NCBI RefSeq assembly: GCF_003312875.1
Contig: NZ_CP015163.1
Location: 5,146,001-5,210,000, forward strand
Direction of reading: 5' to 3'
DNA length: 64,000 bases
Source: Amycolatopsis albispora
Lineage (GTDB): Bacteria > Actinomycetota > Actinomycetes > Mycobacteriales > Pseudonocardiaceae
Part shown: positions 6,218 through 63,392 of the stretch, piece by piece
Layout: every line of letters begins with the position of its first letter
How positions within the stretch are numbered: the stretch's first letter is position 1
The notes under the pieces: model-generated
The model's database searches: none
Seen by the model: the letters and a program-made list of their open reading frames with translations, nothing else
Told to the model about the DNA's origin: nothing
Position numbers and translations under genes: made by a program

Positions 6218-6342
6218 CCAGCAGATGCCCTCTCACTCAGTGGACTTTGTTCCCTCGCAAGAACAATCATCCCAAGTCAGAGGGCATCTGCCCCTCAACG
6301 ACACCACTCCACCACCACAAACACCGGTGGATCCAGGTTTTT

Positions 6343-9531: not shown

Positions 9532-9603
9532 TCCGCCGTAGTGTAATTGGCAGCACTTCAGATTTTGGTTCTGACAGTTCAGGTTCGAATCCTGGCGGCG
9601 GAG
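9532..9603 (+). tRNA. tRNA-Gln (anticodon TTG)
   Basis: The 72-base cloverleaf starts TCCGCCG and ends CGGCGGA plus discriminator G. The anticodon stem is TCAGA/TCTGA around loop TTTTGGT, giving anticodon TTG. The T loop reads TTCGAAT. The 3' CCA is not encoded. It lies in the same orientation just before the GGDEF gene. Confidence 0.96.
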
Positions 9604-24475: not shown

Positions 24476-24675
24476 GTGAATGCTCCAACAGCTGGGCGCG
24501 GGCGCGCGCCGACCACAAGGAAGCACCGCCGAGACGACGGTGAGGCGTAAACCGGAAAGCGGCGAGAGTGGGTACTGGGGTCAGTCGTTGGAGCGACGAC
24601 ACGCACTTACCGTGCGGCGACCTTCATCCACTACTCGGCGTCGAGTCAGCATTCGCGACCGGTACACAGGATTCC

Positions 24676-24760
24676 TCCATCGGTCCTGGCGTTAGCACCT
24701 GCCCTCTCGGGTGGTTGCTGCGACTTCGGCGAGCCAGGCCTCTCAGTCGCTCGGGATGGA
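24676..24760 (-). ncRNA. SAM riboswitch aptamer (SAM-I/SAM-IV superfamily)
   Basis: Read on the minus strand, the segment has the conserved core CTGGCTCGCCGAAGTCGC then AGCAACC, a short stem-loop (ACCC GAGA GGG), and GGTGCTAA. An outer stem TCCATC/GATGGA (24755-24760 with 24676-24681) closes it; GCGAC/GTCGC and CCTGGC/GCCAGG give the second helix and a possible pseudoknot. It lies about 200 bases upstream of the MetN-like gene in a 356-base gap. SAM would switch expression off. The exact subclass is uncertain. Confidence 0.82.
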
Positions 24761-24831
24761 TGCACAAGGAGTACACCCGATCCGGTTCTCCGAACGCAAG
24801 CCCGTGGTCGCAGATCACACGAACAGCGGCG

Positions 24832-58744: not shown

Positions 58745-58763
58745 CTAGTTGGAGGGGCACAGC

Positions 58764-61145
58764 ATGAGCAGGAGCACGCGGACGGGCCAGCGGTCGCCGC
58801 ACGTTGCCGACAGCCACGATCTGATCCGCGTGCACGGCGCGCGCGTGAACAACCTGAAGGACGTCACGGTCGAGATCCCGAAGCGCCGGCTGACGGTGTT
58901 CACCGGCGTTTCCGGGTCCGGCAAGAGTTCGCTGGTGTTCAGCACGATCGCCGCCGAGTCGCAGCGGATGATCAACGAGACGTACAGCGCTTTTGTGCAG
59001 GGGTTCATGCCGACGCTGGCGCGTCCCGAGGCCGATCTGCTGGAGAACCTGACCACGGCGATCATCGTCGACCAGGAGCGGATGGGCGCCAACCCGCGGT
59101 CCACTGTGGGCACTGCCACCGACGCGAACGCCTTGCTGCGCATCCTGTTCAGCCGCCTGGGGAAGCCGCACATCGGTTCGCCGAACGCGTATTCGTTCAA
59201 CGTGCCATCGGTGAAGGCCAGCGGTGCGATCACCATCGAGCGCGGCAACAAGAAGACGGTGAAGGCCACCTTCAACCAGACCGGCGGCATGTGCCCGCGC
59301 TGCGAAGGCCGCGGTGCGATCAACGACATCGACCTGACGCAGCTCTACGACGAAACGAAGTCGCTCGCCGAGGGCGCGATCACCGTGCCCGGTTACAACC
59401 CGGACGGCTGGACGGTCCGCTACTTCACCGCGTCGGGCTTTCTCGACGCGGACAAGCCGATCCGGAAGTACACCAAGCGGGAGCTGCACGATTTCCTGTA
59501 CAAAGAGCCCACCAAGGTGAAGATCGAGAACACGAACATCACCTATGAGGGCCTGGTACCGCGTATTCAGAAATCCTTCCTGTCCAAGGACAAGGAAGCA
59601 ATGCAGCCGCACATCCGCGCGTTTGTCGAACGCGCGGTCACCTTCACCACCTGCCCCGACTGCGACGGTACCCGGTTGAGCGAGGCGGCGCGGTCGTCGA
59701 AGATTTCCGGGAAGAGCATCGCGGATCTGTGCGCGATGGAGATCCGGGACCTGGCCGAATGGGTCCGCAAACTCCAGCAGCCCACCGTCGCGCCCCTGCT
59801 GGCCACCCTGCAGCACACCCTGGACTCCTTCGTCGAAATCGGCCTCGGCTACCTCTCCCTCGACCGCCCCGCCGGCACCCTGTCCGGCGGCGAAGCCCAG
59901 CGCACCAAACTCATCCGCCACCTCGGCTCCGCCCTCACCGACGTCACCTACGTCTTCGACGAACCCACCATCGGCCTGCACCCCCACGACATCCAGCAAA
60001 TGAACGACCTGCTGCTACGCCTGCGCGACAAAGGCAACACCGTGCTCGTCGTCGAACACAAACCCGAAACCATCGCCATCGCCGACCACGTCATCGACCT
60101 CGGCCCCGGCGCCGGCAGCGACGGCGGCACCATCACCTACCAAGGCCCGCTGGCCGGCCTGCGTAAAAGCGGCACCCTCACCGGCCGCCACCTCGACGAC
60201 CGCGCCACCCTCAAACCCGAAGTCCGCACCCCCACCGGCACCCTGGAAATCCGCGGCGCCACCACCCACAACCTGCAACACGTCGACGTCGACATCCCGC
60301 TCGGCGTGCTCTGCGTCATCACCGGCGTCGCCGGCTCCGGCAAAAGCTCCCTCCTGCACGGCTCCCTACCCACCGACGCCGGAGTCATCACCGTCGACCA
60401 AACCCCCATCCGCGGCTCCCGCCGCAGCAACCCCGCCACCTACACCGGCCTGCTCGACCCCATCCGCAAAGCCTTCGCCAAAGCCAACAACGTCAAACCC
60501 GCCCTGTTCAGCCCCAACAGCGAAGGCGCCTGCCCCGCCTGCAACGGCGCCGGCGTCATCTACACCGACCTCGGCATCATGGCCGGCATCACCACCACCT
60601 GCGAAGAATGCGACGGCCACCGCTTCCAAACCGCCGTCCTCGACTACCACCTCGCCGGCCACAACATCAGCGACGTCCTCGCCATGTCCGTCGCCCAAGC
60701 CCACCACTTCTTCACCACCGGCGACGCCACCACCCCCGCCGCCCACACCATCCTCACCCGCCTGCACGACGTCGGCCTCGGCTACCTCAAACTCGGCCAA
60801 CCCCTGACCACCCTGTCCGGCGGCGAACGCCAACGCCTCAAACTCGCCACCCACATGGCCGACAAAGGCGGCATCTACCTGCTCGACGAACCCACCACCG
60901 GCCTGCACCTCGCCGACGTCGAACAACTCCTCACCCTGCTCGACCGCCTCGTCGACACCGGCAAATCCGTCCTCGTCATCGAACACCACCAAGCCGTCAT
61001 GGCCCACGCCGACTGGCTCATCGACCTCGGCCCCGGCGCCGGCCACGACGGCGGCCGCATCATCTACCAAGGCACCCCCGCCGACCTGGTCACCAACCCC
61101 ACCACCCTCACCGGCAAACACCTAGCCGAATACGTCACCCGCTGA
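58764..61145 (+). CDS. UvrA-like ABC ATPase (UvrA2/drug-resistance type)
   Basis: A 793-residue paralogue of excinuclease UvrA, shorter than the 950 residues of true UvrA. It keeps two ATPases (GVSGSGKSSLVFSTIAAES near 52, GVAGSGKSSLLHGSL near 530), signatures TLSGGEAQRTKLIRHLGSAL and TLSGGERQRLKLATHM, Walker B VFDEPTIGLHPHD and LLDEPTTGLHLAD, and the zinc modules CPRCEGRG and CPACNGAG...CEECDGHR. Relatives protect against DNA-binding antibiotics (DrrC). ATG 58764 has GGAGGGG upstream. Codon choice changes sharply near 59,800 within the gene. The stop is 8 bases from the decayed jet remnants. Confidence 0.92.
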   Translation: MSRSTRTGQRSPHVADSHDLIRVHGARVNNLKDVTVEIPKRRLTVFTGVSGSGKSSLVFSTIAAESQRMINETYSAFVQGFMPTLARPEADLLENLTTAIIVDQERMGANPRSTVGTATDANALLRILFSRLGKPHIGSPNAYSFNVPSVKASGAITIERGNKKTVKATFNQTGGMCPRCEGRGAINDIDLTQLYDETKSLAEGAITVPGYNPDGWTVRYFTASGFLDADKPIRKYTKRELHDFLYKEPTKVKIENTNITYEGLVPRIQKSFLSKDKEAMQPHIRAFVERAVTFTTCPDCDGTRLSEAARSSKISGKSIADLCAMEIRDLAEWVRKLQQPTVAPLLATLQHTLDSFVEIGLGYLSLDRPAGTLSGGEAQRTKLIRHLGSALTDVTYVFDEPTIGLHPHDIQQMNDLLLRLRDKGNTVLVVEHKPETIAIADHVIDLGPGAGSDGGTITYQGPLAGLRKSGTLTGRHLDDRATLKPEVRTPTGTLEIRGATTHNLQHVDVDIPLGVLCVITGVAGSGKSSLLHGSLPTDAGVITVDQTPIRGSRRSNPATYTGLLDPIRKAFAKANNVKPALFSPNSEGACPACNGAGVIYTDLGIMAGITTTCEECDGHRFQTAVLDYHLAGHNISDVLAMSVAQAHHFFTTGDATTPAAHTILTRLHDVGLGYLKLGQPLTTLSGGERQRLKLATHMADKGGIYLLDEPTTGLHLADVEQLLTLLDRLVDTGKSVLVIEHHQAVMAHADWLIDLGPGAGHDGGRIIYQGTPADLVTNPTTLTGKHLAEYVTR

Positions 61146-61153
61146 CCGGAAAC

Positions 61154-61507
61154 TCAGCGGCATTGCCGGGTAGCGTCGAGAACGGCGGCGTACGAGATGC
61201 GTTCTTGCTCCAGCCGCACAGAACTCCCCAGCACGCCCTCCACAAGATCGGTGTAGAGGCTTGCCTCGTCCGGAAGAAGTGCCTCGAGGTGCTCGTTGGT
61301 GGGGTTGGGCTCCCCAACCCATTGCTCCTCGTGGGCCAGGAGCGTGGCCCGGTCCATGAGCATGGACCGGGCGCCTCCGAACGAGCGGCGCACGCTGTTC
61401 AAGATCGCGAAGCCGTGGGTGTCGATGTCACCCCAGTAGACAAGATCCTTGTGCGCCAGCCACTTCAACGGACGCAGCCGGGCGGCCGCGTAACCCTCAC
61501 CGAAGAG
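61154..61507 (-). pseudogene. Remnant of jetD (Wadjet nuclease subunit, DUF2220 C-terminus)
   Basis: The frame reads LFGEGYAAARLRPLKWL, VYWGDIDTHGFAILNSVRRS, then SMLMDRATLLAHEEQWVGEP and a C-terminal RLEQERISYAAV. VYWGDIDTHGFAIL is the hallmark of the JetD topoisomerase/primase-like nuclease domain (DUF2220). The piece is only about 118 codons, against about 390 in whole JetD, and no start codon context is present; an in-frame TAG (61508-61510) marks its upstream edge. It lies directly downstream, in the same frame, of a jetA remnant, the order expected if jetB, jetC and the rest were deleted. Confidence 0.8.
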
Positions 61508-61531
61508 CTAACGCGCGATGGCGGCGAACGG

Positions 61532-61855
61532 CTAGTAGCGATCCTGCTGGGCCGAATCGTCGAGCACGGCGAAGTCACCACCGGCGAGCCGGGCGGCCGG
61601 ATCGGTTTGCGCTCCATAGGCCATCTGGCGCAGCAGTTCGAACACCGTGTTCAGGCGGGACTCGGTACCGACGAACGAACGCTCCCACAACTCGTCGTCG
61701 AGACGGCTCGTCAGCTCGGTCGCCGAAATCGAGCGCACGTTGTCGTCGACGAACACCTTACGGAGAAAGCCCAGCACCAGTGGTGCGTGGTCAGCGCGCA
61801 GCAGCCGCCACGCCGGGTCATGACGACGCAGGGAGTCGAGCTCGTCGAAGTCCAT
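61532..61855 (-). pseudogene. Remnant of jetA (Wadjet subunit, DUF3375 N-terminus)
   Basis: This 107-codon frame starts with its own ATG and reads MDFDELDSLRRHDPAWRLL, LVLGFLRKVFVDDNVRSISA and RSFVGTESRLNTVFELLRQM, followed by TDPAARLA and LLDD-like VLDDSAQQDRY, then TAG. These are N-terminal blocks of JetA (DUF3375), normally about 480 residues. From memory of the family, the blocks are closer together than they should be (SRLDDELW joins ERSFVGTES; ARLA joins GGDF), which implies in-frame internal deletions as well as truncation. The start region and spacing to the divergent neighbour look intact. Confidence 0.78.
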
Positions 61856-61919
61856 CAGTGCTCACTGTCTCACCGCTACCATTCGTGTCCGCGAGCAGAG
61901 TCGGCGAACCGGATGGGCA

Positions 61920-62774
61920 GTGAGCGAATACCAGTACTACGAGTTCCTGGCGATCGACCGTCCGCTGGACGAGGACGCACGGGCGGTGGTCCGCTCGCTG
62001 TCCACCCGGGCGGCGATCACCGCCACCAGCTTCGTGAACGAGTACCACTGGGGCGATTTCAAGGGCGACCCGGAATGGCTGATGGAACGCTATTACGACG
62101 CGCACTTGTACGCCGCCAATTGGGGCACGCGCCGCGTCATGTTCCGCTTGCCGTCTGATCGGCTGGATCCGGACGTCGCCGAGGACTACTGCGTCGGCTA
62201 CCAGGTCACCGCCCGGGCCGCGGGTGATTTCCTCGTGCTCGCTTTCACCAGCGAGGACGAACCCGACGAATTCGACGACGATCACACAGCTTCGCTGTCC
62301 GCCATCGCCGGAGTTCGCACCGAACTCGCCGCCGGTGATCTTCGGCCGCTCTACCTGGCCTGGCTCGCCGCCTACGGCACCTGGGAGCGCGACGAAGACG
62401 CCTTCGACCGCGAGTCCGATGACGACCTCGAGCCGCCGGTACCACCCGGCTTGCGCACGCTCACGGCGGCACAACGGGCCCTGGCCGACTTCCTCCGCCT
62501 CGACGACGACCTGCTCGAAACCGCTGCTGAGACTTCTCCGCCACTCGAAGTGGTTACCGGCGACGTCACCGCTTGGGTGGCCCAACTGCCCGCCACCGAG
62601 AAGACCCACTTGCTGACGAGAGTCCTGAACGGCGACGCCGCACGGGTGCGATGGGAACTGCTACATCGCTTCCGTGGTCACAGCACCGCAGCCATCCCAC
62701 CCCGCCGAACCGCCGGCGACCTACTGGACACCGCCGCCCGCCGCCGCACCACCCGACCACCGCAGGACTTCTAG
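61920..62774 (+). CDS. Conserved actinobacterial protein of unknown function, probably truncated
   Basis: A 284-residue protein beginning MSEYQYYEFLAIDRPLDEDA with conserved STRAAITATSFVNEYHWGDF and MERYYDAHLYAANWGTRRV. I recognise it as a widespread actinobacterial family without a known function. Full-length relatives, as I recall them, continue with a long charged helical C-terminus; here the frame ends soon after RTAGDLLDTAARRRTTR, at the point where mobile-element-like DNA begins. GTG 61920 is the start. It is divergent from the jetA remnant, 64 bases away. Confidence 0.75.
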   Translation: MSEYQYYEFLAIDRPLDEDARAVVRSLSTRAAITATSFVNEYHWGDFKGDPEWLMERYYDAHLYAANWGTRRVMFRLPSDRLDPDVAEDYCVGYQVTARAAGDFLVLAFTSEDEPDEFDDDHTASLSAIAGVRTELAAGDLRPLYLAWLAAYGTWERDEDAFDRESDDDLEPPVPPGLRTLTAAQRALADFLRLDDDLLETAAETSPPLEVVTGDVTAWVAQLPATEKTHLLTRVLNGDAARVRWELLHRFRGHSTAAIPPRRTAGDLLDTAARRRTTRPPQDF

Positions 62775-62898: not shown

Positions 62899-62925
62899 GG
62901 CGAGTGCTCTCCGCGAGCACTCGCC
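62899..62925. terminator. Strong hairpin before the HTH gene
   Basis: GGCGAGTGCTC (62899-62909) pairs perfectly with GAGCACTCGCC (62915-62925). An A-run precedes it (CAAAA), which would be a U-tract for minus-strand transcripts, so it may be a terminator reading leftward. It overlaps the first codons of the maximal HTH reading frame, so that frame probably starts later. Confidence 0.5.
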
Positions 62926-62933
62926 TCCCATGC

Positions 62934-63392
62934 GTGGACTTTAGGGGTGCTTACTCGAACATAAAAGACCAGGTCAGAGCCCTGGAGGAGCTCCGTGAGA
63001 AGCTCCCCAGCCTCGATACGCCCGAGCCGCCGTCGATCGAGCGCGATCGACCCCGGCGTGCCCGGCAACTCCATGCCGATCAAGTCGAGCAGTTGATTGC
63101 TGCCTACCGGTCCGGTGCGACGGTGTACGAGCTCGGTGACCGGTTCGGCATCGAACGGCGCACGGTCAGCAACATCCTCCACCGGCACGGCGTGGCGATG
63201 CGCCGCCGCGGCCTCTCGCCCGAGCAGGTCGACGACGCTATCCACCTTTACAACCTCGGCTGGTCGCTGGCGCGCGTCGGCGATCACCTGGGGGTCAACC
63301 ACACGACCGTGCTGAACAAGCTGCGTGAACGCGGCATCCCCACGCGAGACAGCCATGGACGTCCGCGCGTCGAAGCAGGTGGTGCTCGATGA
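62934..63392 (+). CDS. Helix-turn-helix DNA-binding protein of an integrative element
   Basis: The protein has two consecutive resolvase/sigma-like HTH segments: [39 protein letters not shown], and [40 protein letters not shown]. Such repeated HTH modules occur next to recombinase genes in actinobacterial mobile elements. The N-terminus is unclear: the frame is open back to 62904, but a strong hairpin covers that part, and GTG 62934 has no ribosome site, so the gene may be truncated. It overlaps the next gene as ATGA. Confidence 0.65.

Follow-up and report, generated by a model that had tools for sequence, protein, structure and literature searches.

A 702-bp remnant in Amycolatopsis albispora, most probably a recently formed pseudogene, retains both ends of a type I Wadjet (jetABCD) operon

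Within the 64,000 nucleotides of the Amycolatopsis albispora chromosome analysed here (referred to as the window), 702 bp on the minus strand (61855–61154) read as the start of jetA followed by the end of jetD, in one frame and with two TAG codons in between (61534–61532 and 61510–61508, seven codons apart). With a probability of roughly 93%, we take this locus to be a recently formed pseudogene, i.e., what deletions have left of a type I Wadjet (jetABCD) operon, namely its two ends. Stops and deletions relative to intact orthologues, as seen in pseudogenes, are indeed present. The host genome consists of one contig of 9,121,443 bases, on which the remnant occupies chromosome coordinates 5,207,154–5,207,855.

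Homology to JetA (DUF3375) was confined to N-terminal pieces, and homology to the JetD C-terminal domain to the C-terminal 117 residues (Table 1). In profile searches, the JetA piece, which still has its start codon, matched Pfam DUF3375 with an E-value of 4.6e-24 and PADLOC JetA1 with one of 2.1e-34, while the JetD piece matched Pfam JetD_C (5.5e-36, profile positions 64–176 of 179) and PADLOC JetD1 (1.7e-48), and also matched, by sequence, solved MksG and JetD chains. An earlier note on this DNA had described JetA N-terminal blocks followed in the same frame by the JetD C-terminus, with two TAG codons seven codons apart; translation agrees with both statements, and the profile check proposed there returned matches for both pieces (DUF3375/JetA1 and JetD_C/JetD1).

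Table 1. Position in the window of the jet remnant, its deletion junctions, and the adjoining gene
Feature	Position	Strand	Description
jetA remnant	61532..61855	-	JetA residues 1-56, 117-151, 169-184; ends at TAG replacing conserved Gln185
jetA codons 186-192	61511..61531	-	between both TAG codons
jetD remnant	61154..61507	-	last 117 residues and stop; WGDIDTHG motif kept, Glu motif (VVENE) further upstream lost
First in-frame jetA deletion junction	61688..61690	-	loss of 60 codons; each end a Leu codon, overlap only 2-3 bp
Second in-frame jetA deletion junction	61583..61591	-	17 codons lost; inside imperfect 9-bp direct repeat (CGGcTCGCC / CGGgTCGCC in relatives)
Main junction	61505..61510	-	jetA codon 192 to jetD codon ~271; ~5.7 kb lost; holds second TAG, possibly filler bases
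Gap from jetA start to MSEYQYYEF gene	61856..61919		64 bp here vs. 434 bp in G017
MSEYQYYEF gene	61920..62774	+	284 residues; aligned range 1-286 on the 388-residue G017 protein

A DNA search for the remnant's pieces in 60 relatives located them ~6.3 kb apart in three of these genomes. Intact jetA-jetB-jetC-jetD operons were found in G001 (L023), G017 (L024), and G021 (L025), with a fourth in G080 (L087); the operon of G017 measures 6,643 bp (L024 5829–12471), and those of the relatives ~6.6 kb, vs. 702 bp for the remnant. The remnant aligned collinearly with all four, covering JetA residues 1–56, 117–151, and 169–192 and then JetD from ~271 to its end. Protein identity amounted to 85% between the JetA piece and the JetA of G017, and to 75–81% between the JetD end and the four intact JetD proteins. 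Since both ends have been kept in order and in orientation, at 75–85% identity to intact operons, a type I operon must once have been present here. What has been lost relative to the intact operons are 60 and 17 codons inside jetA and then ~5.7 kb, i.e., the rest of jetA, jetB, jetC, and most of jetD. The collapse of jetABCD to about 700 bp that had been claimed from the letters of the window is therefore borne out by the profiles and the intact ~6.6-kb operons, as are the complete absence of jetB and jetC and the loss of most of jetA and jetD; the extra in-frame deletions suspected inside jetA are visible in the alignment.

These losses stem from two in-frame deletions that took 60 and 17 codons from jetA and from one deletion of ~5.7 kb that joined jetA codon 192 to jetD codon ~271; in addition, a conserved Gln codon has changed into TAG. 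The deletions may be products of ordinary illegitimate recombination at repeats that are short or imperfect, with the main junction possibly formed via end joining. At the site of the first TAG, all four aligned relatives carry CAG (JetA Gln185). Neither side is matched well by the bases that separate GCGCGT (jetA) from TTCGG (jetD) at the main junction, so that the second TAG may stem from the join and not from a point change, a view that we hold loosely. All three deletions keep one reading frame, and there is no frameshift in the rest of the remnant; by simple arithmetic, keeping the frame through three deletions has a chance of ~1 in 27, which makes it a small oddity.

As for its functionality, the locus does not hold all four type I genes whole, with jetA and jetD being truncated and jetB and jetC being absent. 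Displacement of jetB or jetC to a nearby position was considered and dropped, because sensitive tblastn searches over the surrounding 9 kb yielded only chance matches (E 0.22 or worse). Across the genome, no type I JetC was found with a query that was run without a positive control, nor did any other type I JetA, JetC, or JetD match point to a second copy. The JetD remnant keeps the WGDIDTHG motif. In an alignment in which the position was counted by eye, it lacks the Glu corresponding to the residue mutated in the JetD(E248A) structure 8q72; this catalytic Glu sits before JetD residue 271, where the remnant begins. Judging from its sequence, this locus should be unable to yield the SMC ATPase JetC, JetB, or a full JetA or JetD, and we predict it to be dead as plasmid defence because JetB, JetC, and the catalytic Glu region of JetD are gone.

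A second JetD-like match in the same chromosome, at 1,980,698, falls outside the window among four consecutive and apparently intact open frames (G000:C1:1980425-1988125; L171 8426-16126) that match type III Wadjet, with profile scores of 253 bits for JetD3, 1,398 bits over the full length for JetC3, a weak 18 bits for JetB3, and 405 bits for JetA3. The strain thus probably keeps a type III Wadjet that looks complete. Where the earlier note spoke of the collapse of a plasmid-targeting defence system, its claim holds for the type I operon, which is gone, but is weakened as regards the loss of plasmid defence, since a complete-looking type III Wadjet is present in the same chromosome. The type I deletions may have persisted because the system was dispensable, perhaps given this remaining type III Wadjet.

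The age of the collapse was approached with codon models. With five sequences (216 codons), omega was 0.083 on the remnant branch vs. 0.054 elsewhere (LRT 1.09), and with eight sequences these values were 0.071 and 0.059 (LRT 0.26), with both an omega of 1 (2dlnL 36.0) and one of 0.15 (4.9) being rejected in the latter set. For the jetA part alone, omega 1 was strongly rejected (43.9), and omega was nominally higher than the background (0.066 vs. 0.035, LRT 1.9). For the jetD part alone, omega 1 was not rejected at the usual level (2dlnL 3.42), which leaves room for neutral evolution of this part. No relaxed constraint was detected on the remnant branch by these models, which is compatible with either a recent origin or remaining constraint. 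Because the codon rates show no detectable relaxation, the collapse looks recent; in the simplest reading, for which the jetA part provides the basis, the branch was mostly spent as a working operon. Continued constraint on a product would give the same codon-rate picture.

Such a product would be expected if the remnant still made short functional protein(s), i.e., the 107-residue JetA piece and/or a JetD piece of up to 117 residues, acting, say, on another SMC complex as dominant modulators. We regard this as highly improbable, even though the frame kept through all three deletions, the retained jetA start codon, and the low omega on the remnant branch would all suit it. Among proteins of 0.55–1.75 times the query length, the JetA piece had 85 matches, of which only the remnant's own covered it fully (the next best reached 85% coverage) and none other displayed the same JetA architecture with its internal deletions. 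For the JetD piece, short homologues were encountered among the listed matches (120 of 410), many of them on contigs of a few kb and some on long ones (e.g., P0087 from Nocardia sp. NBC_01329, 167 aa, 78% identity), and such short C-terminal open frames lend the idea some support. No match with both the JetA and the JetD Pfam domain was present among those listed. The proposition that conserved, stand-alone short proteins of this kind would speak against a collapse therefore finds no footing in the JetA piece, whereas short homologues of the JetD piece do exist elsewhere. A conserved mini-protein is further disfavoured by the two stops between the pieces, by the missing Glu motif of the JetD piece, by a jetA start just 64 bp away from the next gene, and by a comparable locus in G022 where the ends of jetA and jetD meet out of frame.

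A recently formed pseudogene could also have originated otherwise than by stepwise erosion in this strain, either through a single complex event or by arriving already broken from another strain. We think this unlikely, although the low omega implies little neutral time and yet three deletions and a stop have accumulated; moreover, the neighbours of intact operons vary between species, indicating that the type I system moves. On the other side, the order of the lesions is not given by the sequence, and a search of 80 genomes of the genus turned up no intermediate. That the remnant is an assembly or sequencing artefact is least credible of all: we found no point in its favour, the genome is a single contig of 9.12 Mb, and a mis-joined intact operon would explain neither the TAG change nor the two separate deletions in jetA. 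The deletion-derived pseudogene remains our preferred reading.

When 80 Amycolatopsis genomes were searched, matches to the alignments used here were obtained for JetD in 13 and for JetA in 11. Whole operons of the close type occurred in G001, G017, G021, and G080, and a more divergent one in G060. Further type I subfamilies are suggested by weaker matches in long open frames (G011, G023, G034, and a second locus in G080); in G028 and G004, the matches were limited to JetD. Besides the genome under study, type I scars were present in three other Amycolatopsis species (G022, G072, and G074) and in G021, which also holds an intact copy. The G022 scar joins jetA codons 1–30 out of frame to the last jetD codons, the G072 scar is a jetD piece of 65 codons with one stop inside the match, and the G074 scar consists of jetA codons 19–41; the latter two both adjoin the MSEYQYYEF gene. 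The second locus of G021 is a frameshifted jetA piece on a different contig from its intact operon. A possible jetD trace of 50 bp in G091 (E 3e-5) was left out of the scar count. A collapse common to G022 and the remnant is not favoured: of 177 bases that can be compared, G022 differs at 32 from the remnant, at 31 from the intact G001 operon, and at 28 from that of G017, in a stretch too short to decide. The open frames beside the G022 scar (L026 93-6068) resemble, by eye, a type I restriction system.

In a broader set of 397 genomes of the order, JetD_C was matched in 73 and DUF3375 in 85. When the 56 JetD loci with the strongest matches in this set were inspected for JetA on the same contig and strand, 47 had it no more than 20 kb away, and nine had no JetA match nearby. 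The distance between JetA and JetD was 4.5–5.5 kb in 46 of those 47 cases, with only the remnant below 1 kb (181 bp between the profile matches). Among the best 80 named Wadjet loci, all four genes were called in 59, the coverage required being 0.9 or more for jetA, jetC, and jetD and 0.85 or more for jetB. Of the 21 remaining loci, 14 have jet matches that start less than 500 bases from the start of the stretch, and these loci may for that reason simply be cut. Outside the genus, L102 (4907-6206; a Nocardia metagenome bin) carries jetA codons 1 to ~26 joined to what appear to be the last jetC codons, followed by a full-length jetD, which looks like another operon-internal deletion; in L133 (Nocardia niigatensis) and L146 (Agromyces bracchium), the JetD end alone was found in otherwise long stretches.

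The recurrence of type I scars within one genus is mildly interesting. It might be speculated, with more doubt than confidence on our part, that type I Wadjet undergoes repeated, selective dismantling in this genus through individual deletions after which one or both ends of the operon frequently remain, the system being a burden because it blocks useful plasmids or is redundant with type III. If so, type I Wadjet would be a fast-turnover module, with scars marking its past possession.

On its jetA side, the remnant is adjoined by the MSEYQYYEF gene, whose protein matched nothing in Pfam, NCBIfam, or PADLOC and whose G017 homologue had no match in Pfam. This gene is present in 17 of the 80 Amycolatopsis genomes, the present one included. 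It directly adjoins intact jetABCD in G001 and in G017 (L024 12906-14072 being the G017 gene), and a further intact jetABCD with this gene alongside is that of Nocardia sp. CC227C (L104 1495-2634), the only such case in the 80 named Wadjet loci, so that the gene is possibly an unrecognised Wadjet neighbour. The expectation that a relative would show intact jetABCD between a uvrA-like gene and the MSEYQYYEF gene was thus borne out on the latter side; in G001 and G017, the other neighbour was not a uvrA-like gene, counting matches of 45% identity or more. The full 388-residue length of the G017 protein is covered by 12 of the 19 copies of the MSEYQYYEF protein, while the present copy and six others are partial; with only 12 of 19 copies full, the truncation here need not belong to the same erosion. 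A small gene of ~104 codons precedes the MSEYQYYEF gene in 13 (in one partly) of 23 loci searched; counted by copies of the MSEYQYYEF gene, this is 13 of 19. It lies in the 434-bp gap of G017 and is absent both here and from the jetA-side copy of G001; as that G001 copy lacks it too, its loss likewise need not have been part of the collapse. A conserved non-coding element of ~330 bp upstream of the MSEYQYYEF gene was considered and dropped, as this stretch is the open frame of ~104 codons and Rfam gave nothing in the loci scanned.

Beyond the MSEYQYYEF gene, the flank contains an HTH gene (62904–63392), a gene that matches DUF2637 below threshold, and a regulator of the LacI type, past which long open frames resemble sugar-catabolism genes by eye. 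The HTH gene has matches in 54 of the 80 Amycolatopsis genomes, occurs here in three copies (the other two being 90% identical), and lies close to the MSEYQYYEF gene in 5 of the 17 genomes carrying the latter. No FtsK/SpoIIIE match was found within 130 kb of the remnant (the nearest being ~137 kb off, at 5,344,664), and the nearest integrase match was a weak one ~70 kb away, at 5,278,222. The incoming conjugative element that had been proposed to lie next door is consequently unsupported, with neither a transfer ATPase nor an integrase nearby. Downstream of the remnant, the window encodes a UvrA-like protein (58749–61145) of 798 residues that scores 678.9 bits vs. a curated UvrA cut-off of 729.8 and is probably a short UvrA paralogue. 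Rfam hits elsewhere in the window were a SAM riboswitch (24674–24762, minus strand), the actinobacterial sRNA Ms_IGR-7 (6220–6336, plus strand), and a tRNA (9532–9603, plus strand).

According to a passage in PMC10482375, Wadjet occurs in 42% of actinobacterial genomes vs. 7% of others. With its junctions identified, its intact relatives, and its sister scars in the genus, the remnant documents one case of the loss of a plasmid-defence operon, and it warns that a JetA or JetD profile match does not equal a working Wadjet; counting such scars could provide an estimate of the turnover rate of such systems. No report of this jet remnant was present among the full-text literature matches listed for Wadjet. 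Compared with type I Wadjet proper (JetABCD; the subfamily with PADLOC JetA PDLC00457 and JetD PDLC00530), both pieces of the remnant match the profiles and are collinear with intact operons, but jetB and jetC are missing, jetA and jetD are truncated, and two stop codons are present. Broken Wadjet loci are already known in kind, and in this sense the remnant is ordinary. The PADLOC paper mentions a frameshifted jetC in a type I Wadjet locus (PMC9252829), and jetA/jetC pseudogenes are described for some Xylella strains (PMC9148166). As in those passages, a Wadjet operon has been inactivated here; however, they concern one or two broken genes, whereas only the two ends of the operon are left in the remnant. 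Loss of Wadjet genes by chromosomal deletion is likewise described in PMC12287153 for a Clostridium cellulovorans laboratory mutant, in which a spontaneous deletion took the Wadjet operon; the paper also reports that targeted deletion of jetABCD raised conjugation by about five orders of magnitude. The spontaneous deletion reported there spans ~23 kb, in contrast to the internal collapse described here, which spared the ends of the operon.
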